Source: Salinibacter pepae
GTDB lineage: Bacteria; Bacteroidota; Rhodothermia; Rhodothermales; Salinibacteraceae
Direction of reading: 5' to 3'
Assembly: GCF_947077775.1 (NCBI RefSeq)
Contig: NZ_CAMTTE010000001.1
Coordinates: 2,508,501 to 2,572,500 of the forward strand
Length of the DNA: 64,000 bases
This document shows, one piece after another, positions 1,563 through 12,753 of the stretch. The position numbers were made by a program, and so were the translations under genes. The notes below the pieces were generated by a model. That model worked only from the letters and a program-made list of their open reading frames with translations. It searched no databases and was not told the DNA's origin. Position 1 is the stretch's first letter; every line of letters starts with the position of its first letter.

Positions 1563-3083
1563 ATGACGGACTCGACCGCGACATCCCGTCCCTTCGACAA
1601 CGTTCTCGTTGCCAACCGCGGGGAGATTGCCGTGCGGGTCCTGCGCACCTGTCACGAGCAGGGCCTCAACACGGTCGCCGTCTACAGCACGCCGGACCGC
1701 TCCGCGCCCCACGTGCGGCGGGCGGACGAGGCGTACCACATTGGCCCGGCGGAGGCCGCACAGTCGTACCTCGACCCGGAGGCGATCCTGGAGGCGGCGC
1801 GCCGCAGCGGGGCCGATGCCATTCACCCCGGCTACGGCTTCCTCTCGGAAAACGCGGCCTTCGCGGAGGCCTGTGCGGAGGCCGGCGTCCACTTCGTGGG
1901 GCCGCCGGCGGCGGCGATCCGGGCGATGGGCGACAAGACGGCCGCCCGCCAGCTCATGAAGGAGGCGGGGGTGCCGATGGCCCCGGGCACCACCGACGCG
2001 GTGGCGAGCACGGAGGAGGGAGAGGCGATCGCCGAGGACATTGGCTATCCGGTGCTCATCAAGGCGGCGGCGGGCGGCGGGGGCAAGGGCATGCGCATCG
2101 TCCACGAGCCGGAGAACTTTGCCGGGGCGATGGACCGGGCGCAGGGGGAGGCCGCGTCCTCGTTCGGCGACGGGCGCGTCTTTATCGAGAAGTACATCGA
2201 GGAGCCCCGCCACATCGAGTTTCAGATCCTGGCCGACCACCACGGGAATACGGTCCATCTCTTCGAGCGGGAGTGCTCCATCCAGCGCCGCCACCAGAAG
2301 GTGATCGAGGAGGCGCCGTCGTCGGTGCTCACCCCCGAGGTGCGCCGCGAGATGGGCGCGGCGGCGGTGGCCGCGGCCGAGTCGTGCGGCTACCGGAACG
2401 CCGGGACGGTGGAGTTTCTGGTGGACAAGGACCTCAACTACTACTTCATGGAGATGAACACGCGCCTGCAGGTGGAGCACCCGGTCACCGAGTGGGTGAC
2501 GGGCGTGGACCTGGTGGCCGAGCAGCTGCGCGTGGCGCAGGGGGAGGCGCTGGGCTACACCACCGACGACCTGTCGATCAACGGGCACGCGATGGAGAGC
2601 CGCGTCTACGCGGAGGACCCGGCCTCGAATTTCCTGCCCGACCCCGGCCCGCTCAAGCGGCATTCCGCTCCCTCAGGATTCGGCGTACGGGTGGACGCCG
2701 GTGTGGAGGAGGGGGGCGAGGTGCTGATCCACTACGACCCGATGATCTCGAAGCTCACCACGTGGGGCTGCGACCGGGAGGCGGCCATCGACCGCATGAT
2801 CCGCGCGCTCGACGAGTACGAGGTGGCGAGCATGGCCACCACGATCCCGTTCTGCCGCTTCGCGATGCAGCACGAGGGCTTCCGCGCGGGCGACTTTACC
2901 ACCCACTTCGTGGACGAGGAGTTTGACCCCTCCGCCCTCCAACTGGAGGACCCGGAGCGGGACGAGCTTGCGGCCCTCGCGGCGACGCTCTACTACGCCG
3001 AGGCGCAGTCCGAGGAGGCCCCAACAATCGCGGCGAATGGCCGGGAGGGCGGGAGTCCGTGGCGCCAGCGGCGGCGCCCCTGA
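1563..3083 (+). CDS. accC: Biotin carboxylase subunit of acetyl/propionyl-CoA carboxylase
   Basis: This is the ATP-dependent biotin carboxylase that charges biotin on a carrier protein with bicarbonate, the first half-reaction of acetyl-CoA (or propionyl-CoA) carboxylase. The N-terminal domain begins VLVANRGEIAVRVLRT. The ATP-grasp glycine loop GGGGKGM is at residues 171-177, and the second carboxylase signature EMNTRLQVEHPVTE at 297-310. The C-terminal domain ends near 480. At 506 residues it is longer than typical AccC (about 450); the last ~25 residues are basic and look disordered. There is no BCCP domain in this chain and no carrier or carboxyltransferase gene beside it, so the partners must lie elsewhere. 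Acetyl- versus propionyl-CoA specificity cannot be decided from this subunit. Confidence 0.93.
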   Translation: MTDSTATSRPFDNVLVANRGEIAVRVLRTCHEQGLNTVAVYSTPDRSAPHVRRADEAYHIGPAEAAQSYLDPEAILEAARRSGADAIHPGYGFLSENAAFAEACAEAGVHFVGPPAAAIRAMGDKTAARQLMKEAGVPMAPGTTDAVASTEEGEAIAEDIGYPVLIKAAAGGGGKGMRIVHEPENFAGAMDRAQGEAASSFGDGRVFIEKYIEEPRHIEFQILADHHGNTVHLFERECSIQRRHQKVIEEAPSSVLTPEVRREMGAAAVAAAESCGYRNAGTVEFLVDKDLNYYFMEMNTRLQVEHPVTEWVTGVDLVAEQLRVAQGEALGYTTDDLSINGHAMESRVYAEDPASNFLPDPGPLKRHSAPSGFGVRVDAGVEEGGEVLIHYDPMISKLTTWGCDREAAIDRMIRALDEYEVASMATTIPFCRFAMQHEGFRAGDFTTHFVDEEFDPSALQLEDPERDELAALAATLYYAEAQSEEAPTIAANGREGGSPWRQRRRP

Positions 3084-3573
3084 TTCAGAGGCCCCGAGCT
3101 GCCGGCGAACGTGCCCGCCTTCGGTCCGGTGATTGGGGCCGGACCTGCGACGCCGTCAAGGACCGTCGTCGAGGCGAGGGGGCGGGGCACGTGGCGGGCT
3201 GTGGCAGCCGAACGACGAATCGGCTTCCGATCTGTTGCTCCGCCTCGACTTCGACTGTGCCGATCATCCGGTCGTGACGCGTGCTGCTGGCTGCCTGCAT
3301 TCCGGCGGGCCCAAACAGGGAGGGTTGCGATCCGGCCTCGGCAGAACGCCCTGGGCGTCAGTTACGGATCCCCCACCGGCCCACCCTGACGACGCGGGCT
3401 TTAGCTCTTGGTCGGTCCCTTCAATCAGGGCGAGTCGACGTGGCTTCGCGGTGGACCTGCCTGAGGACCACGGGCCACGCGAGGAAGCGAGAGCAAGGAC
3501 TTGTGGGGCCCTCTCGTGTTGCGGAGCTGTGCCACAACGCTGACGGCTCGCCCCCATACCCCCCATCATGCCC
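3084..3573. other. Intergenic stretch between convergent genes
   Basis: This 490-base region separates the 3' ends of the biotin carboxylase and bactofilin genes. Several overlapping open frames exist in most frames, as expected for GC-rich noncoding DNA, but none has a recognisable domain or the local acidic codon bias. No convincing terminator was found. Confidence 0.45.
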
Positions 3574-4281
3574 TTACCAGTCCACCCCAAAGTCTTCGTC
3601 CCCGTCCGACTCCGACCTGTTCTCTGGCGTTGAGTCATCTCGGAGAGACGACGAATCGTCGCCCCCTGGCGTCTCTGCTGGACCAGGCGCCCCCAGCTGC
3701 TCTTGCTCGGGCCGGTTCACCAGGGGCTTTCCGCCCGTGTGGTGGGACGAGAGGTAGAAATCTGGGGGGCGAACCGACGCCGGCACTGTCCGTCCTGGAG
3801 AGCCATCTCCCCGTTCCGGAGAAACGGGTGTCACAAACGACCCCCTCACCTCACTTACCGTTCCGGTGAACTGCGCCCCGAGCTTCACCTCGAGTGTCGC
3901 CCTCTGAAGGGTCAGGATGCCCCCCTGCACGTGTGCCATCTTCAGAATCAAGAGGTGGTCGAATACGAGGATCGCCCCCTGTAGCGTACCACCGATGTGC
4001 AGATCCGAAGCGCGCACAGTGCCGCTGACCTGGGCGCCCTCAGCCACGCGCACCTCTGAGGCGCAAATGGAGCCGTGGGTGGAGCCGCTTCCAGCGATGT
4101 ACACGGATCCCTCGGTCGTGATCGGTCCCTGTACGTGCCCCTCCACGAGGAGATCAGAGGTGCCGAGACGAAGCGTTCCCTGGGCTCTGCCCCCCTCGCT
4201 CAAGACCGAGCCGGAAAACGAATCAGGGACGGGGGCGAGTCCCTCTCCATCTGAGGGGGAGTGGCCACTGAACGGATACAT
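3574..4281 (-). CDS. Bactofilin-family cytoskeletal protein
   Basis: Bactofilins polymerise without nucleotide into filaments that scaffold cell-shape, stalk or envelope machinery. This 235-residue protein has a central core of short, regularly spaced hydrophobic/glycine repeats (about residues 35-145; for example LLVEGHVQGPI, VYIAGSGSTHGSI, LHIGGTLQGAIL), the signature of the right-handed beta-helix DUF583 fold. The flanking tails (1-30 and 150-235) are polar, proline/serine/acid-rich and probably disordered, as is usual in the family. No signal peptide or membrane helix is visible, so it is cytoplasmic. Upstream on the same strand, 440 bases away, is an unusual actin-like ATPase gene, so two cytoskeletal genes lie next to each other. 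Co-transcription is possible but not shown. Confidence 0.82.
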   Translation of the reverse strand: MYPFSGHSPSDGEGLAPVPDSFSGSVLSEGGRAQGTLRLGTSDLLVEGHVQGPITTEGSVYIAGSGSTHGSICASEVRVAEGAQVSGTVRASDLHIGGTLQGAILVFDHLLILKMAHVQGGILTLQRATLEVKLGAQFTGTVSEVRGSFVTPVSPERGDGSPGRTVPASVRPPDFYLSSHHTGGKPLVNRPEQEQLGAPGPAETPGGDDSSSLRDDSTPENRSESDGDEDFGVDW

Positions 4282-4721
4282 AAGAAATCTGAGAAGGGAG
4301 TGGTGCTACGTCAACCGCGATTGTGAAGGCAAGAGCGACCCCACAATCCAATTCCCGGCCCGCCATCATGAGCGACGCCGAGAGATTTCTTCGAAGAAGC
4401 CGGACCCCTTCGAAGAGGCCCTTTGGGGGGCTCGGGGCAACCCGCATTAGGATGTTGAGACCGCGCTGGCAGGCAAAAAAATGGGGGCCGACAGACCGGT
4501 AGAACGTAGGGCCGAAAGCAGTATCGAGGGAAGACACGGGCCGGCCGTTTGCGAACAGGCTGCGTGCGCGGCGCCGGCGCACACCATGACCGCCCTCTGC
4601 TGTGCCTCAACAGCATTTGCTGTGCCTCAACAGCAGTTGGGCCCGCTGCCTCCAGCGCGCCCCAGAGGCGACCCGGCCGCTGGCCCTCTAGCACAGGAGC
4701 CCCCCGGACGTCTACGTCCCC
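4282..4721. other. Spacer between actin-like and bactofilin genes
   Basis: This 440-base spacer lies between two minus-strand cytoskeletal genes. It holds the pair of tandem short hairpins described separately (4598-4635). Open frames crossing it are arginine/proline-rich and unconvincing. If the two genes form an operon, this is a long untranslated linker that could carry processing sites or a second promoter. Confidence 0.45.
4598..4635. repeat. Two tandem 18-bp hairpin repeats
   Basis: The 18-mer TGCTGTGCCTCAACAGCA occurs at 4598-4615 and again, identical, at 4618-4635, separated by two bases. Each copy is itself an inverted repeat: TGCTGT pairs with ACAGCA around a six-base loop. The pair lies about 90 bases downstream of the actin-like gene on its coding strand. 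There is no following T-run, so a simple intrinsic terminator is unlikely. An RNA-processing or protein-binding site is possible. Confidence 0.6.
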
Positions 4722-5747
4722 CTACACGCTTTCTTCGTGGAGGAGGTTGATGACTGTGTTGGCGTTGCCGATGTCGAGCCCCACAGCCCGCTCTCGATGG
4801 CCGCCGTTCGCATTCGCGGCGTGCAGCGCGTACCCTCGGCTGATGAACGACGCAGGGTTCGGAACAACCTCCAGAGACAGAACATCCCCGAATTCATCGG
4901 CGAAGGCGTCGACAAGCTCATCGAACAGTGCTCCTCCACCCCCAACGTACATCTTCCGTGCACGGCCAAAATCGGCGTCGTCGAAGGCCCGCTTGAGCGT
5001 CGGGGAGACGATGTCCTCGTAGTAGGTCGACAGCACGTCCTGGCGCATTTCGGTAAGGTCCATCTTTCTGCGACCGATCACAATACGGCCCTTGCGCATC
5101 GCCATGTCGAGCTGGTGCTCCGTGACCAGGTCCAGATAATGCTCCTTCTGAAGGCGGTCCGACATGAGTTGGGTGGCGTACTGGAGGCCGCTGGCCGAGG
5201 CGGTGGTCCGCTGTACAATCCCGGACGGAAGGCTGAGGGCCGCCTCCATGGTCCCGTACCCGAGCCCGACGGCAAAGAACGGGTCGCGCTCGCTCGGCTC
5301 TCCCTGCCGCACCCCGAAGGTGAAGCCCTCAATTTCGGGAATGATCTCTACCTGGTCGACCTCAACTCGAATGCTGGTGTCCGGGCTCTTCCCGAAGGTG
5401 CGACCGTCCAGGTCGATGACGTGCGTTCCCTGTACCAGGTCTTCAGCCGTGTCCCGGTGAGCGGCATACGTGGAGGCGGGAAAGCCAGTAGTGACGCACA
5501 TCGGCTCCTCAGCCCCGGCTTTGGTCACCGCAAGGGCGGCCTGAAGCAGGAGGCGGTAGTCCAAATCGGACGGCGCATTGTTGATGCCCTTGTGCGGAGC
5601 ATTCCCTTCTAGCAGGGCAAGCTCCCCGACGACGTAACTGCGCCCGTTGTGCCCGATCTTTAAACCGGTGAGAAGGCTGTCCGATACGTCGACAAGCTCA
5701 GCATTGCTGGCCTCGAATACGCTTGGTAGGGTTTTGGTCTTAAACAT
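4722..5747 (-). CDS. Circularly permuted actin-like ATPase (ParM/Ta0583-like)
   Basis: This 341-residue protein has the motifs of actin-fold ATPases of the ParM/archaeal Ta0583 type, but in permuted order. In normal members phosphate-1 is at the extreme N terminus. Here the N terminus starts directly in the strand after it (MFKTKTLPSVFEAS), and phosphate-1 is the last element, AVGLDIGNANTVINLL at residues 321-336 (D325, G327, N328, T331). In between are a phosphate-2-like segment, FFAVGLGYGTMEAA (157-170), with glycine where an Asp is usual, and the adenosine loop MYVGGGGALFDELV (266-279). The reading frame is continuous. Upstream of the ATG an in-frame stop lies 15 codons away with no phosphate-1 motif in between. 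A CCTCCCC-type run precedes the start rather than a good ribosome site. The family assignment rests on motif order and length; the permutation is read directly. The neighbouring bactofilin suggests a cytoskeletal rather than plasmid-partition role, but that is inference. Confidence 0.75.
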   Translation of the reverse strand: MFKTKTLPSVFEASNAELVDVSDSLLTGLKIGHNGRSYVVGELALLEGNAPHKGINNAPSDLDYRLLLQAALAVTKAGAEEPMCVTTGFPASTYAAHRDTAEDLVQGTHVIDLDGRTFGKSPDTSIRVEVDQVEIIPEIEGFTFGVRQGEPSERDPFFAVGLGYGTMEAALSLPSGIVQRTTASASGLQYATQLMSDRLQKEHYLDLVTEHQLDMAMRKGRIVIGRRKMDLTEMRQDVLSTYYEDIVSPTLKRAFDDADFGRARKMYVGGGGALFDELVDAFADEFGDVLSLEVVPNPASFISRGYALHAANANGGHRERAVGLDIGNANTVINLLHEESV

Positions 5748-6699: not shown

Positions 6700-9600
6700 T
6701 CAGCGCTCCGCATCATCCACATCGCCATTGCCCGTCTCTCTGCTCTCTTCTTTCGGCATCCGGACGCGAACCGTAGTGCCCTTGCCTTTTTCCGTCTCCA
6801 TCTCGATTGAGCCGTTCATCTGCTCGACGGCCTCTTGCGCCACCGCCAGCCCAAGCCCGGTGCCCTCGTACTCCCGGGCCACCCCCTCGGAGGCCTGCCG
6901 GAAGGGCCTAAACAGATCCTCGACCTTTTCGGGGGCCATCCCAATGCCGCTGTCCTCCACCTCGATTATCGCATGCCCGGTTTTTTCGTAGGCGTGGAGC
7001 TGTATTTCCCCGTCTTTCGTATACTTGATGGCATTGGAGACCAGGTTGCGGAGCACGATCTGCACGCCGCCGCCGTCGGCCCGGGCCCAGGTCGGCTCGC
7101 CTCCGGACTGGACCTGCAGGCGCAGCCCTTCCGCCTCGGCCTGAGGCCGAAGCTCGCCGGCGACCTCACCGACCTGCTCGGCCAGGTCCACGGGCTCGGC
7201 CCCCAGGTCCATTTCCCCGGCCTCCAGCCGCGAGAGGTTGAGCACGCCGGTGAGCGTGTCCATCAGCCGCTGCCCGCTCTTCTGAATCAGGCCTGCAAAC
7301 TCCACAGGGGGCTTCAGGTCGTCTGCCGCGGCCGGGGGCTCTAGCCCCTCGATCTCCTCCTCGATCGCCTCCGCAAACCCGAGGACGCTCGTCAGCGGCG
7401 TGCGGATCTCGTGGCTCATGTTCGCGAGAAGGGACGACTTCATCCGGCCGGCCTCCTCGGCGGCTTTCTTGGCGCTCATAAGCTCGCGCTCCTTGCGGAC
7501 GTTCTCCGTAATGTCCTGCGCCAGCATCAGGCCTTCTGCCTCGGTGTCGCCCTGGAGGGGCACGACGTGGACGCGCAGCGTGCGGCCGCCGACCCCGATC
7601 CGTCGGTCCGTCCGCTCCCCCGCCAGGGCCGCCTCGAAGCGGTCTACAATCGGGTGCCGGCCCCCCTCGATGCCGACGAGGACGGTCCCGGCCTGTGCCC
7701 CGAGCAGGTCGGACTCCTCCAACTCGTACGTGCCGAGCAGCTCGCCGGCCGCCAGCGTGTAGGCAAGGTTCTCATCAAACAGGAATACCGCCCCGTTCGG
7801 AATATTCTCGGCGAGGGTGCGGTAGCGGCGCTCACGTGCAATCAGGTCGTGCGCTCGGGTGAGGGATTCCAGCGCCTTTCGGAGACTCTGCGCGACGGTT
7901 TCCAGAAGGCGAAGGGCCCCGTCGTCGAGACCGTTCGGGGCAGCGGTGCCCACGACGAGCACGCCGCGCTGTCCCAGCGGCACGTACGCGCAGCCCGTGA
8001 GGCCCGACCGGTCTACGCCGTCGTCGATGGTGCTGGGATCGGGGTGCACCTGCGTGTCCTCCTCGTCGAGGGCGGTCCAGAGCGGGGTGTGTCCCTGCTC
8101 GACCCGGGGCATCGAGCCGACCACCTCACTGTCGATGGCGCCGGCCCGCACCAGCACGTCGCCGTCCCGCAGGTACACGGCGGCCTCTTGGAAGTTGAGG
8201 GTGTCGCCGAGGGCATCGGTGACAATCGACGCGGCGCCGGCTTCCGTGCCCACGGCGAGAAGGTCCCGCGTCACGCGGTAAAGGCTTCGAAGCCGCCGCT
8301 CCCGCACTTTCTGGTCGGTCACGTCGGTGGTCACGCCGGCGAGCCGCTGAAGGGTCCCCTCGTCGTCGTAAATCCCGTCGATCTGCGCTCTGAGCCACCG
8401 GCAGCCCCGGGTGGGATGCAGTACGCGGAACTCCTGGTGCTGCGGCCAGCGTGCCTCGCCGTCGCCCTGCGCCTCAACGGCCGAGCGGAGGGGCCCGAGG
8501 TCCGCAGGGTGGACGTGACGGGTCCAGGCACTCGGGGCGTCGCGCAGCGTGTCCCGGTCCACGCCGTACAGCGTTTCGGTTGCGCTGTTGGCGTAACGGA
8601 GCTCCGAGTAGTCGGGCGTAACGATATAAAACGCGTTCGGCACCGCCTCCGCGAACTGCTCGAACCGCTGGTTGGCACGTCGCAGGGCCCGGCGTCGCTC
8701 CTTCTGCGGGGTCACGTCGCGTCCAACCCCACACAGGACCCAGCCCCGTGTCGGGTCGTCGAAGGCATCCCCCACAAACTCGTGGGGCACCCGGTGCCCG
8801 TCCTTGGTGATCAGGGGGGCTTCCACCCGAACAGCCTGACCCGCGGCGCTTTCCTCGATGGCGTCTCGGATGCGGGCCGCATCGTCTTCGTCGAAGAGGT
8901 CAGGGGCCGTCATGGCCTCGAGCTCCGCGTCCGTGTAGCCGGTGACCTCGTTGAGGCGGCGGTTCCAGAACAAGAGGTCTCCCTGCTCGTCGAGCAGATA
9001 AAACACGTCCTCAATCGTGTCGAGGATCTGATCGAGGAACGCCTTCTGGTCGGCCAGGTCCTGTCGGCGCTCCTCGCGCTGGGTGACATCGTGGATCACC
9101 GAGAAGAGAAGCGTCCCGCCCCGATCCAGATCCGGAACCGGCGCCGAAAGGACCCGCACCGTCCGCACCTCTCCGGACGCGAGTTCGTGCTCGAATAGGA
9201 ACTCGTCGCCGTCCTTCGCCGCTTCGCGGCGCTCCCGGGCCACCGCCTCCGCCGGAAGTTGATTGATGTCCTGGATCGACATGGACGTCAGGACGTCCCG
9301 GTCGTATTCGTAGAACTCGGCGGCCGCCGCGTTGGCCCGCTCAATTGCGCCTGTCTCCTGGTCGATGAGCAGCATCGGGGCGTTGTGGCCCTCGAACATC
9401 ATTCGGAACCGGCGCTCCCGGCGGGTGAGGCGCTTCTGCATGGCCTTCCGTTTGGAGATGTCCCGGAAGATCCGGTACACCACGCGCCCGTCGGGGAGAC
9501 CTACGGTGGTGGCGTTGAGTTCAACGGGGACAGCGGTGCCCTCGTCGGTGACGACTTCAATCTGGGTTCCGTCCGGGAGGGCCCGTCTCGGGCCGTCTTC

Positions 9601-12600
9601 GTCGAGGCTCTGACGGAAGAGCGACGCGTACGCCTCGGCCCGGCCCGAGGGGTGGAAGTCGGTCTGGTGGGCCCCGATGATCTCCTCGCGGGGGCGCCCG
9701 AGCAGATCTGCAGCGGCCGCGTTCGCCTCCACAATCTTGCCGGTCTCCATGTCGGCCCCCAGGACCGGATTGGGGTTTGCCTGGAGGAGGGCCTGGTGGC
9801 GCTCCCGGCTGGCCGCGAGATCGCGCCGGCGTTCCCACTGGGCCGTCACGTCGGTGGCGATGCCCAGGACGCGGACGGCCCCTCTCTCCTCGTAGACCGG
9901 CGTCGCCCGGAGGTGCATTCGAGCAACTCCTTCCTCGGGGTGGAACAGCCAAAAGTCACCCTCCCACGATTCGCCGGTGCTGGTCATGTCCTCGAGGGCC
10001 GCCTCCACATCGGGCAGATCATTGGGATGAACGATTTCGGTAAAGGCCTCGAACGTCTGTGGGTCGTGCCCGAACAGGTCCTGGAGGGTCTCGTCCCACT
10101 GCATCTCGCCGGACTGCAGGTTCCACTCGAGGACTCCCGTGTCGGTCCCCGTTAGGGCCAAGTCGAGCTTCTGCTGGCGCTCTTTTCGCTCGGTCACGTC
10201 GGTCCCCGACGCGAGGAGGCGGGCCACCTCGCCGTTCTCGAAGATGGGAATGACCAGCGTCTCGATCCAGCGGGTACGCCCGTCCCCGTCCTCGATTCGG
10301 AACTCCCCGTTCCAGGAAGACGCGCTGTCGACGACGGAGTCGAACCCGTCCCGCACCCGCGAGCGGTCCTCCGGATGGATCAGGGCGAAGAAGGCGTCTG
10401 TGCTTTCCGGTGCCCGTCCAAAAATGTTGCGGAGCATCCCGTCCCACCGGATCTGGCCGGCCCGCAGGTCCCACTCGGCGATGCCGGTCTCACTCGCGGT
10501 GAGGAGCAGTTGGCGCTTCCGGTTCCGATCCTGGCGACCGGTCATGTCCCGCACGGTACACACGAGCCGTCCCGCCTCCGTAACGGTGAGGGACAACGCC
10601 GCCGGAAAGGTGCTGCCGTCCGGGCGCTGCCCCGTCACGAGGCCCTGCCAGTGGCCCTCCTCCTCAAGCACGGGAAACACCGTTTCTTCGAGGCGCTCGA
10701 TCTCGTCCTCCCCGTAGAGCATCCGCCAGGTGTTGCCCAGGAGCTGCTCCTTGTCGTCGAACCCGTACATGTCGGCGTGGGTCTGGTCCACGTACACGTA
10801 CTCGTCGCCGGCCAGCACCGCCATGCCCTCCGCAGAATCCTCGACGGCCTGATGGAGCACCTTCAGCTCGCGCCGCTGGTCCTCGCGAGCGGTGACGTCG
10901 CGGCCCGATACAATGAGGGCGGTGACCGTTCCGTCCTCGTCGGGGACGGGGCGGATGCTGCCACGAATCGTGTACTGGAGCCCATCCGGCCTCAGGTGCT
11001 CGGACTGGTACGTCACGTACTCGCCCGCCGCCGCCCGTGCGATCCAGTCCTGAAGGTCCGCCTGGAGGGCAGAATCGTGGTCCCACCAGGGCGTCTCCCA
11101 GAAGGATTGCCCGACTACCTCTTCCCGGCCTGCGTTGATGAAAGAAAGGGCCGTGTCATTGACCCTGCGGAGCGTCCCGTCCAGGTCGAGGAGGCCGGTC
11201 AGGAGGTTCGGGTCCTGAAAGACCGCTTCGAACTGCCGCTCACGGCGGCGCAGTTTTTGTCTCCGTCGCCGCCTCTCGGTTACGTCCTGGTAGGTGCCGA
11301 TCAGTCGCTCCGCGTCACCGTCTTCGTTCCGGAGGATGCGCGCACGGGCCTGCACATGCCGGTCTTCTTCGTTGGGCCGGCGAACTCGGTATCGGACCTG
11401 GCAGGTCTCCTTGTCGGGATCCTCCAGGACGCGAGCCATTGTGTCCTGGAGACGTCCCCGGTCGGCCGGGTGGACGTGCTCGAGGAGTGCTCCGGTTGTC
11501 TGCGGGGCCGAATCGACCCCGAAAAGGGCCTGCGTGCGCTCGTCCCACACGCGCCGGTCGTCCGGAATGGACCACTCGAACACGCCCGCGTCGGCGGCGT
11601 CGAGGGCCACCCGGAGGCGCGTCTTCTCCTCGGCGAGGGCCGCACTTTTCTCCTGTACGGAGGCTTCTGCCTGCTTGCGCTGATGAATGCTCCGGGTGAT
11701 GCCGGCCAGCTTCACGGGCGCCTCCAGCGTTGTTTTATCGGCGTCAGAGAAGGAGGGCCGGCCCACGACGCGCACAGCGGTCTCGACCCACCGCACGGTC
11801 CCGTCGGGCTGAAGAAGCCGGTACGCCCCGCGCCAGCGCTCGTCTTCGAGCAGGTCGTGGGCGGTTGGCAGGCCGGGCTGGTCCTTGGGGTGCGCCGCCG
11901 ACCGCCAGAGCATCGGGTCTCGGACAAACGCGTCGGTGGGGCGGCCGAAAATGGACTCTTCCGAGCTGTTCACGTAGGCCAGCTCATGCCGGACGGGCCC
12001 CGCCTCGTTCGGGCCGGCAGGATGAATCTGCACCTCCCAGACCGCATCGTCGAGGGACGCAAGCAGCTCATTGAGCCGTGTCGCGTCCAACTCGGTGGGG
12101 CCGGCCCGGTCGACCGCTTTGGTTTTCTGACGGCGCCGCCGTTCCAACTGATCGACCGCCATCTGCGCAAGGTCGTCCAGCCCTTCGAGTTGTCGCTCCG
12201 AGGGCGCGCGCGGCTCGGTGTCGAGCGCGCAGACGGTTCCCAGCACATGGCCGTCCGGGGTAATCATGGGGGCGCCGGCGTAGAAACGGACGTGGGGCTC
12301 CTCCGTGACGAGCGGATTGTCGTCGAACCGCTCGTCTTCGGTCGCGTCCTCCACCACGAGCCGCTGCCCATCGTCGAGGGTGTGCACGCAGAAGGAGGCG
12401 TCGAGCCCGAGCGCCTGCGCGTCGAGCCCGACACAGGCCTTGTGCCACTGTTTCTGATCGCCAACAAAAGTGACCAGCCCGATGGGGACGTCCAGCAGGG
12501 CCGCCGCGAGATCCGCAATGCGGTCGAACGTCTCCTCCGGGGCGGTGTCGATGACGTCGTACCGGCGTAGGGCCTGGAGGCGACGGGGATTGATTCGTGC

Positions 12601-12651
12601 GTATTTGCTGTCTGAGGGGGAGAGGTCCGGATCGGAGGGACCAGCGGGCAT
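6700..12651 (-). CDS. Giant soluble multi-PAS/GAF sensor histidine kinase
   Basis: This protein of about 1980 residues is a cytoplasmic sensor kinase. Starting from the ATG at 12651 (a GTG at 12735 would add 28 residues), I read: an N-terminal GAF domain (about 30-170, with WHKACVGLDA and FCVHTL); ten consecutive PAS/PAC modules, most ending in a DVTERK-like linker; a second GAF; an eleventh PAS; then HisKA with the phospho-acceptor His in [14 protein letters not shown] (about residue 1747) and a HATPase_c domain with the N-box NLVSNAIKYT and G-box motifs (DSGIGMAP, GTGLGLA). There is no transmembrane segment, receiver or output domain, so it must pass phosphate to a separate response regulator, and none is adjacent. 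The many PAS domains suggest integration of several redox, oxygen or small-molecule signals. The gene ends in a clear terminator. Confidence 0.93.
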   Translation of the reverse strand: MPAGPSDPDLSPSDSKYARINPRRLQALRRYDVIDTAPEETFDRIADLAAALLDVPIGLVTFVGDQKQWHKACVGLDAQALGLDASFCVHTLDDGQRLVVEDATEDERFDDNPLVTEEPHVRFYAGAPMITPDGHVLGTVCALDTEPRAPSERQLEGLDDLAQMAVDQLERRRRQKTKAVDRAGPTELDATRLNELLASLDDAVWEVQIHPAGPNEAGPVRHELAYVNSSEESIFGRPTDAFVRDPMLWRSAAHPKDQPGLPTAHDLLEDERWRGAYRLLQPDGTVRWVETAVRVVGRPSFSDADKTTLEAPVKLAGITRSIHQRKQAEASVQEKSAALAEEKTRLRVALDAADAGVFEWSIPDDRRVWDERTQALFGVDSAPQTTGALLEHVHPADRGRLQDTMARVLEDPDKETCQVRYRVRRPNEEDRHVQARARILRNEDGDAERLIGTYQDVTERRRRRQKLRRRERQFEAVFQDPNLLTGLLDLDGTLRRVNDTALSFINAGREEVVGQSFWETPWWDHDSALQADLQDWIARAAAGEYVTYQSEHLRPDGLQYTIRGSIRPVPDEDGTVTALIVSGRDVTAREDQRRELKVLHQAVEDSAEGMAVLAGDEYVYVDQTHADMYGFDDKEQLLGNTWRMLYGEDEIERLEETVFPVLEEEGHWQGLVTGQRPDGSTFPAALSLTVTEAGRLVCTVRDMTGRQDRNRKRQLLLTASETGIAEWDLRAGQIRWDGMLRNIFGRAPESTDAFFALIHPEDRSRVRDGFDSVVDSASSWNGEFRIEDGDGRTRWIETLVIPIFENGEVARLLASGTDVTERKERQQKLDLALTGTDTGVLEWNLQSGEMQWDETLQDLFGHDPQTFEAFTEIVHPNDLPDVEAALEDMTSTGESWEGDFWLFHPEEGVARMHLRATPVYEERGAVRVLGIATDVTAQWERRRDLAASRERHQALLQANPNPVLGADMETGKIVEANAAAADLLGRPREEIIGAHQTDFHPSGRAEAYASLFRQSLDEDGPRRALPDGTQIEVVTDEGTAVPVELNATTVGLPDGRVVYRIFRDISKRKAMQKRLTRRERRFRMMFEGHNAPMLLIDQETGAIERANAAAAEFYEYDRDVLTSMSIQDINQLPAEAVARERREAAKDGDEFLFEHELASGEVRTVRVLSAPVPDLDRGGTLLFSVIHDVTQREERRQDLADQKAFLDQILDTIEDVFYLLDEQGDLLFWNRRLNEVTGYTDAELEAMTAPDLFDEDDAARIRDAIEESAAGQAVRVEAPLITKDGHRVPHEFVGDAFDDPTRGWVLCGVGRDVTPQKERRRALRRANQRFEQFAEAVPNAFYIVTPDYSELRYANSATETLYGVDRDTLRDAPSAWTRHVHPADLGPLRSAVEAQGDGEARWPQHQEFRVLHPTRGCRWLRAQIDGIYDDEGTLQRLAGVTTDVTDQKVRERRLRSLYRVTRDLLAVGTEAGAASIVTDALGDTLNFQEAAVYLRDGDVLVRAGAIDSEVVGSMPRVEQGHTPLWTALDEEDTQVHPDPSTIDDGVDRSGLTGCAYVPLGQRGVLVVGTAAPNGLDDGALRLLETVAQSLRKALESLTRAHDLIARERRYRTLAENIPNGAVFLFDENLAYTLAAGELLGTYELEESDLLGAQAGTVLVGIEGGRHPIVDRFEAALAGERTDRRIGVGGRTLRVHVVPLQGDTEAEGLMLAQDITENVRKERELMSAKKAAEEAGRMKSSLLANMSHEIRTPLTSVLGFAEAIEEEIEGLEPPAAADDLKPPVEFAGLIQKSGQRLMDTLTGVLNLSRLEAGEMDLGAEPVDLAEQVGEVAGELRPQAEAEGLRLQVQSGGEPTWARADGGGVQIVLRNLVSNAIKYTKDGEIQLHAYEKTGHAIIEVEDSGIGMAPEKVEDLFRPFRQASEGVAREYEGTGLGLAVAQEAVEQMNGSIEMETEKGKGTTVRVRMPKEESRETGNGDVDDAER

Positions 12652-12753
12652 GGAGCGTGTCGGGGGCGGGGTAGAGAAAAGTGCAGAACCTCCGGGTCGT
12701 GTGTCCCCTGAGCCCGCAGGGCCCGCTTCGTGCACACGTTTGCGGGGCCTCCC

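Follow-up and report, generated by a model that had tools for sequence, protein, structure and literature searches.

Several bacterial actins of the ParM type have been described in structural and functional terms. Dh-cParM1 of Desulfitobacterium hafniense keeps the normal order of nucleotide-binding motifs, is encoded with ParR alongside and has been reported to hydrolyze nucleotide (PMC12270681). On the side of the bactofilins, M23-bactofilin operons represent a known morphogenetic pair (PMC10945521), the bactofilins of Bacteroidota often bear an N-terminal membrane-targeting peptide, and BacP of M. xanthus is bound by its partner PadC at a site in the BacP tail (PMC12448750). All actin-family structures matched in this study share one order of secondary-structure elements, and we found no description of a permuted actin-family protein in the open-access papers that were searched, in agreement with the first-pass annotation, whose author knew of no described permuted prokaryotic actin.

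In this study, we analyzed a pair of genes in the window, that is, the whole stretch of 64,000 nucleotides of Salinibacter pepae DNA. Both genes lie on the minus strand and had been placed correctly by the first-pass annotation: a ParM-like protein with a predicted actin fold (4722..5747) and a bactofilin (3574..4281).

Results

Motif order in the ParM-like protein

The 341-aa product of the ORF at 4722..5747 (minus strand) was matched by the Pfam profile ALP_N (PF17989) with an E-value of 2.8e-12 and 47.5 bits, against a curated cut-off of 26.3, and by PHROG 691, a partition protein family (3.1e-17). The ALP_N match paired residues 4-138 with profile positions 18-145 of 148, so that the first 17 positions, which hold the phosphate-1 (P1) strand and loop, are absent from the N terminus. 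The new N terminus (residues 1-12, MFKTKTLPSVFE; 5712..5747, minus strand) aligned with the post-P1 strand of canonical ParM, and residue 3 paired with position 30 of the canonical HMM. P1 was read at the other end of the chain, where VGLDIGNANT occupies residues 322-331 and is preceded by the phosphate-2 (P2)-like and adenosine motifs in their usual order. The relocated motif GLDIGNANT (residues 323-331; 4755..4781, minus strand) aligned with canonical P1 and contains residues invariant in all 38 members of the family described below. The P2-like motif VGLGYGTME (residues 160-168; 5244..5270, minus strand) has Gly161 where Asp is usual, and the adenosine motif was located by the family alignment at residues 268-273 (4929..4946, minus strand), with GGGA at 270-273 and the GGG invariant. 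Glu138 (5334..5336, minus strand), invariant in 38/38, lies where we take the catalytic Glu/Gln of ParM and actin to be, judged by the profile alignment and partly from general knowledge of the family.

No P1 was found upstream of the start codon, where the frame of the window gene stays open for 14 codons only; other family members, again with no P1 upstream, have a stop 2-4 codons ahead of the start. The upstream reading and the coverage of ALP_N confirmed the first-pass description of a continuous frame with P1 at the C terminus and none before the start.

Rotation and doubling of the sequence

A canonical profile was built from nine ParM/StbA, PRTRC-D and phage proteins. Single copies of family members (n = 18) covered this profile from position 28-35 to about 319-338, with E-values of 1e-15 to 1e-24. 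When the copies were doubled, a second match opened at profile position 4-9 in 18/18, from residues 317-324 of copy one onward, continued without a break over the junction to about 305-338 and scored higher in bits than the match within the first copy alone. In a rotation scan with hhalign, in which the family and canonical alignments were compared, the unrotated family scored 157.3, and scores of 169.6-170.0 were reached only with a start at residues 308-322; the best canonical score therefore needs a rotation by about 20-30 residues, which gives an end-to-end alignment. The mean score after column shuffling of the C-terminal block was 158.4. Furthermore, the P1 segments of Hsp70 (BiP 17-40, mortalin 4-28) aligned to family profile positions 315-339, and later Hsp70 segments aligned to positions 96-287. 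The plateau of the rotation scan and the structural model place the joint of the permutation in a linker at residues ~311-320 (4788..4817, minus strand), which connects the helix that ends the canonical chain with the hairpin of the relocated P1.

These alignments support the reading of the gene, from its sequence, as a natural circular permutant of a ParM-like actin, in which the P1 hairpin has shifted from the N to the C terminus. The circularly permuted prokaryotic actin proposed in the first-pass annotation thus gained support from the motif order in 38 members, from the rotation and doubling tests and from the predicted fold. Degeneration of an actin, with P1 lost and a coincidental motif at the C terminus, would agree with the additional loss of the P2 Asp, which resembles a decaying site, but P1 is invariant in the 38 members although identity within the family falls to about 40%, rotation restores the end-to-end alignment and 0/200 column shuffles reached the rotated score. 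We regard degeneration as highly improbable.

Conservation and distribution of the family

In 38/38 distinct near-complete members, P1 comes at the end of the chain, none of them has the usual P1-P2-adenosine order, and G323, D325, G327, N328, T331, E138 and the adenosine GGG are invariant in all of them. A second permuted copy, 60% identical, is present in the same genome. The first-pass annotation had pointed to homologues as a check, and the 38 members and the second genomic copy all share the permuted order, with no intact N-terminal P1 that would make the C-terminal motif a coincidence. One permuted actin ORF (L076:5931-7316, minus strand) encodes 461 aa and carries an N-terminal extension, beginning MGLMGWIRHTFREEP, and an acidic linker; this extension is possibly a membrane anchor.

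The family search covered this phylum, phages, plasmids and viral contigs. Relatives were detected in 18/296 sampled genomes of the phylum and in 31/245 genomes of the class, corresponding to 13/89 genera. A second class contributed 8 relatives in 341 genomes (8/170 sampled genera), one of which is a fragment, and a scan of genome contigs with one query sequence gave one further locus. There were no relatives in viral contigs and none in phages at an E-value of 1e-5, and plasmids yielded one distant PRTRC-D protein only. A weak phage match, H2, falls within a hypothetical gene of 3 kb and was left out of the analysis. No canonical ALP_N actin was found in 247 genomes of the phylum at an E-value of 1e-4, every match belonging to the permuted family, and ALP_N matched 15/18 tested members at E-values up to 0.01. 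Identity with MreB was considered and rejected: the MreB_Mbl profile gave a weak match in 4/18 members only, and the genome encodes its own, separate MreB. The presence of this MreB indicates that the permuted actin and the bactofilin form an additional system.

Predicted fold

The AF2 model of the permuted actin reached a pLDDT of 71.4 and a pTM of 0.71; its input of 10 sequences was mostly non-permuted (two sequences plus eight viral ParM-like relatives), and the model is moderately confident only. With a two-sequence alignment, the pLDDT was only 41. The model contains a helix at 297-312 and a strand at 321-323, with residues 321-335 formed as two strands, and its pLDDT is lower at 313-320 and below 50 at the last residues. 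In VIA-align, the best match was Dh-cParM1 (8x1i; Z 25.6 over 305 residues, 3.1 Å), and Z-scores were 23.6 for pCBH ParM, 22.8 for CorM, 22.7 for Ta0583, 18.6 for MreB and about 18-19 for Hsp70, the range across ParM, Ta0583, MreB, Hsp70 and actin being 18-26. The best Foldseek match by E-value was CorM of Anabaena (9rmi). The permuted actin is thus predicted to have an actin fold, and the structural check suggested in the first-pass annotation returned an actin-like model with matches to ParM and Ta0583 rather than a fold unlike actin.

The VIA alignments ran from model residues 1-2 to about 310-318 and entered targets with a short N terminus at about residue 19-25 and targets with an extended one later, which is the coverage expected if model residues 321-335 replace the first hairpin. 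Because the aligner is sequential, it is this pattern, and not a direct superposition, that suggests that residues 321-335 occupy the place of the first hairpin in the actin fold. The first-pass annotation had expected a fold closed with its termini at P1; the start of the matches past the P1 of the targets (~19-25) agrees with this, and the hairpin that closes the fold would then be that of the protein's own chain.

Alternatively, the hairpin could be donated in trans, the C-terminal hairpin of one molecule completing the pocket of its neighbor, with strand exchange coupling assembly and nucleotide binding. The hairpin sits on a flexible-looking linker (313-320, of lower pLDDT), and sequence data would look the same for closure in cis and in trans; against this, the linker of ~9 residues from the last helix to the hairpin has the length expected for same-chain closure, and the single-chain prediction forms both strands, at a place suggested by the coverage pattern. 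Donation in trans seems unlikely to us, and closure within one chain is preferred.

The nucleotide site

In actin and ParM, the Asp of P2 serves hydrolysis and the coordination of metal or water. This residue was invariant in the canonical sequences compared and is replaced in 38/38 permuted members, by Ser in 31, Gly in 4 and Asn in 3, whereas the 38 all retain P1, Glu138 and the adenosine motif. Its loss in every member makes ATPase activity doubtful, and the simplest expectation is hydrolysis that is slow or does not occur. Judged from these motifs, the permuted actin probably binds nucleotide and hydrolyzes it slowly or not at all. Of the first-pass term "actin-like ATPase", the first half is borne out by the predicted actin-like fold and by the order of the P2-like and adenosine motifs, while ATPase activity is not established, since the P2 Asp is missing in every member.

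The replacement of the P2 Asp in 38/38, and the fact that the partner bactofilin is itself a polymer, would also suit a non-polymerizing, ATPase-dead adaptor of the PilM/FtsA kind that decorates bactofilin polymers. However, the best fold matches were to the polymerizing ParM, CorM and Ta0583, which is no proof of polymerization, and the invariance of P1, Glu138 and the adenosine motif also speaks against it. We give the adaptor a substantial chance, though one clearly below even.

The bactofilin neighbor and its genomic linkage

The neighboring gene (3574..4281, minus strand) encodes a bactofilin of 235 aa, conserved as a neighbor of the actin and matched by Pfam PF04519 (1.7e-15; 57.5 bits against a curated cut-off of 27.9), the best-scoring stretch of the domain being residues 66-142 (3856..4086, minus strand). 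The sequence and its alignment delimit an acidic, low-complexity C-terminal tail (3577..3855, minus strand), which from its composition is probably disordered and which ends in GVDW (3577..3588, minus strand).

A bactofilin gene lies directly downstream of the actin gene on the same strand in 26/36 distinct loci. Most of these loci have 8-172 nt between the two genes, L062/L063 have about 250-270 nt, and the window has 440 nt; this last distance counts against our best explanation, since it leaves co-transcription there open to doubt. This gap (4282-4721) is longer than that in the 96%-identical relative L053 and holds a short direct repeat, gctgtgcctcaacagca, at about 4598-4640. A 127-aa ORF between the actin and bactofilin genes was rejected as a real gene, because it had no cluster in other loci. 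On the other side of the actin gene, a 2011-aa ORF (6700-12735, minus strand) looks by eye like a sensor histidine kinase rich in PAS-like repeats.

The actin of L073, L074 and L086 lies within an M23-actin-TPR-bactofilin operon, in which the bactofilin is of the ordinary type; the M23 and TPR domains were tested on L074, and L073 and L086 were assigned by clustering. By our own reading, small ATP-synthase-like genes follow the operon in L073 and L074. There was no bactofilin nearby in 7/36 loci (L058-L061, L077, L079 and L082), whose complete genomes hold one ordinary bactofilin, without the Trp tail in those read. Therefore, a linked bactofilin with a Trp tail is not a universal requirement of the actin. 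A bactofilin was present somewhere in the genome in 28/28 tested good-quality actin-bearing genomes and in 28/29 relatives without the actin, and such co-occurrence alone therefore says little.

The end of the tail distinguished linked from unlinked bactofilins. Among those directly linked to the actin (n = 26), 24 had Trp in the last two residues (22 terminal, 2 penultimate) and 2 had Phe, whereas Trp occurred there in 0/57 unlinked bactofilins, 27 of them encoded in those same genomes and 30 in relatives that lack the actin; one of the unlinked proteins ends in Phe. A C-terminal Trp thus marks actin-linked bactofilins (Fisher p = 7e-19 for Trp tail against linkage, with loci related by descent and counts that are not independent). 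On the actin tree, every main branch contains the pairing with a Trp tail, and only three changes are needed to explain it, as would fit a single ancestral state followed by a few losses. The same genome contains a second actin-bactofilin pair (L002:1501-2529 and 2575-3291; G000:C1, about 1426017-1427807), whose bactofilin ends in STIEW, against FGVDW in the window; the two pairs of this genome may have their own tails. The linkage is stronger than was noted when a dedicated cytoskeletal module was first suggested, with 26/36 loci adjacent, three operons and a Trp tail only in the adjacent bactofilins.

The matches to ALP_N and to the PHROG partition protein, together with the existence of chromosomal ParMs (PMC12270681), could point to a chromosomal DNA segregation protein of the ParM type that is next to the bactofilin by chance. 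But no ParR-like or small partner recurs among the clustered neighboring genes of the permuted actin, and no neighborhood gene family other than bactofilin recurs in more than 9/37, which argues against a ParR partner; the sole recurrent neighbor is the bactofilin, found in two gene arrangements and with a Trp tail specific to the linked copies. We consider a role in segregation very unlikely.

Discussion

Considering these results together, it is likely that the locus encodes a nucleotide-binding permuted ParM-like actin with a dedicated bactofilin. From sequence we read the permutation and how it is conserved, the linkage to the bactofilin gene, the change in P2 and the Trp tail, and the fold was predicted; polymerization, docking and a role in the envelope are what we infer from them. 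In the process that we propose, the old C-terminal helix, joined to the relocated hairpin by a linker of ~9 residues, would give a complete nucleotide pocket in the folded protein. The bactofilin would form a stable polymer, probably membrane-associated, and the aromatic end of its tail, nearly always Trp, may dock on the nucleotide-bound actin, for which BacP-PadC and FtsZ-FtsA offer models. The actin might then coat or extend the bactofilin scaffold, or form co-filaments with it, and so organize envelope growth or shape. In this role it would be a stable filament or a binding switch and not a dynamic motor of segregation. More tentatively, and with a chance that we put well short of even, the new C-terminal P1 hairpin and the missing P2 Asp could make the permuted actin a stable, nucleotide-locked filament that would co-assemble with the bactofilin through an FtsZ-like, Trp-ended tail, making a composite cytoskeleton of a kind not described.

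The conserved permutant shows that the actin fold tolerates its first nucleotide-binding hairpin at the other end of the chain, and it offers a natural experiment on how termini constrain filament formation. A link to the bactofilin, whose filaments do not depend on nucleotide, would connect two cytoskeletons of bacteria so far treated separately, and the terminal Trp provides a simple handle for testing it. The pair suggests an undescribed two-part bacterial skeleton, and as a module of two genes it looks new.

A functional parallel is FtsZ-FtsA, in which polymeric FtsZ has a disordered linker as well as a conserved C-terminal peptide and binds the actin-fold FtsA. Here, however, the polymer is a bactofilin and not tubulin-like, and FtsA is not permuted in the same way. 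With ParM/StbA/PRTRC-D (ALP_N, PF17989), the permuted actin has in common the sequence family, the fold, the adenosine motif and the P1 sequence; it differs in its C-terminal P1 hairpin, the lack of the P2 Asp, its chromosomal gene and its bactofilin neighbor, with no ParR-like neighbor seen. Dh-cParM1 (8x1i), the best VIA match, is likewise ParM-like and chromosomal (PMC12270681). CorM of Anabaena (9rmi) and Ta0583 of Thermoplasma (2fsj/2fsn; 2.6 Å over 280 residues) have a similar fold, but the VIA alignment starts at residue 62 of CorM, after a normal N-terminal part, and at residue 19 of Ta0583, which has the normal order; moreover, the CorM filament was solved by cryo-EM with CorR, whereas the permuted actin adjoins a bactofilin. 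BeeR of Verrucomicrobiota (8r2n) is also a lineage-restricted bacterial actin of unknown function, but it is not permuted and forms a three-stranded tube (PMC11929497). Finally, BacA/LmdC and BacP/PadC likewise combine a bactofilin scaffold with a dedicated partner, BacP through its C-terminal tail (PMC10945521, PMC12448750), and the M23 neighbor in L073, L074 and L086 recalls BacA/LmdC; in the pair described here, the partner is an actin-fold protein and the bactofilin tail ends in Trp.
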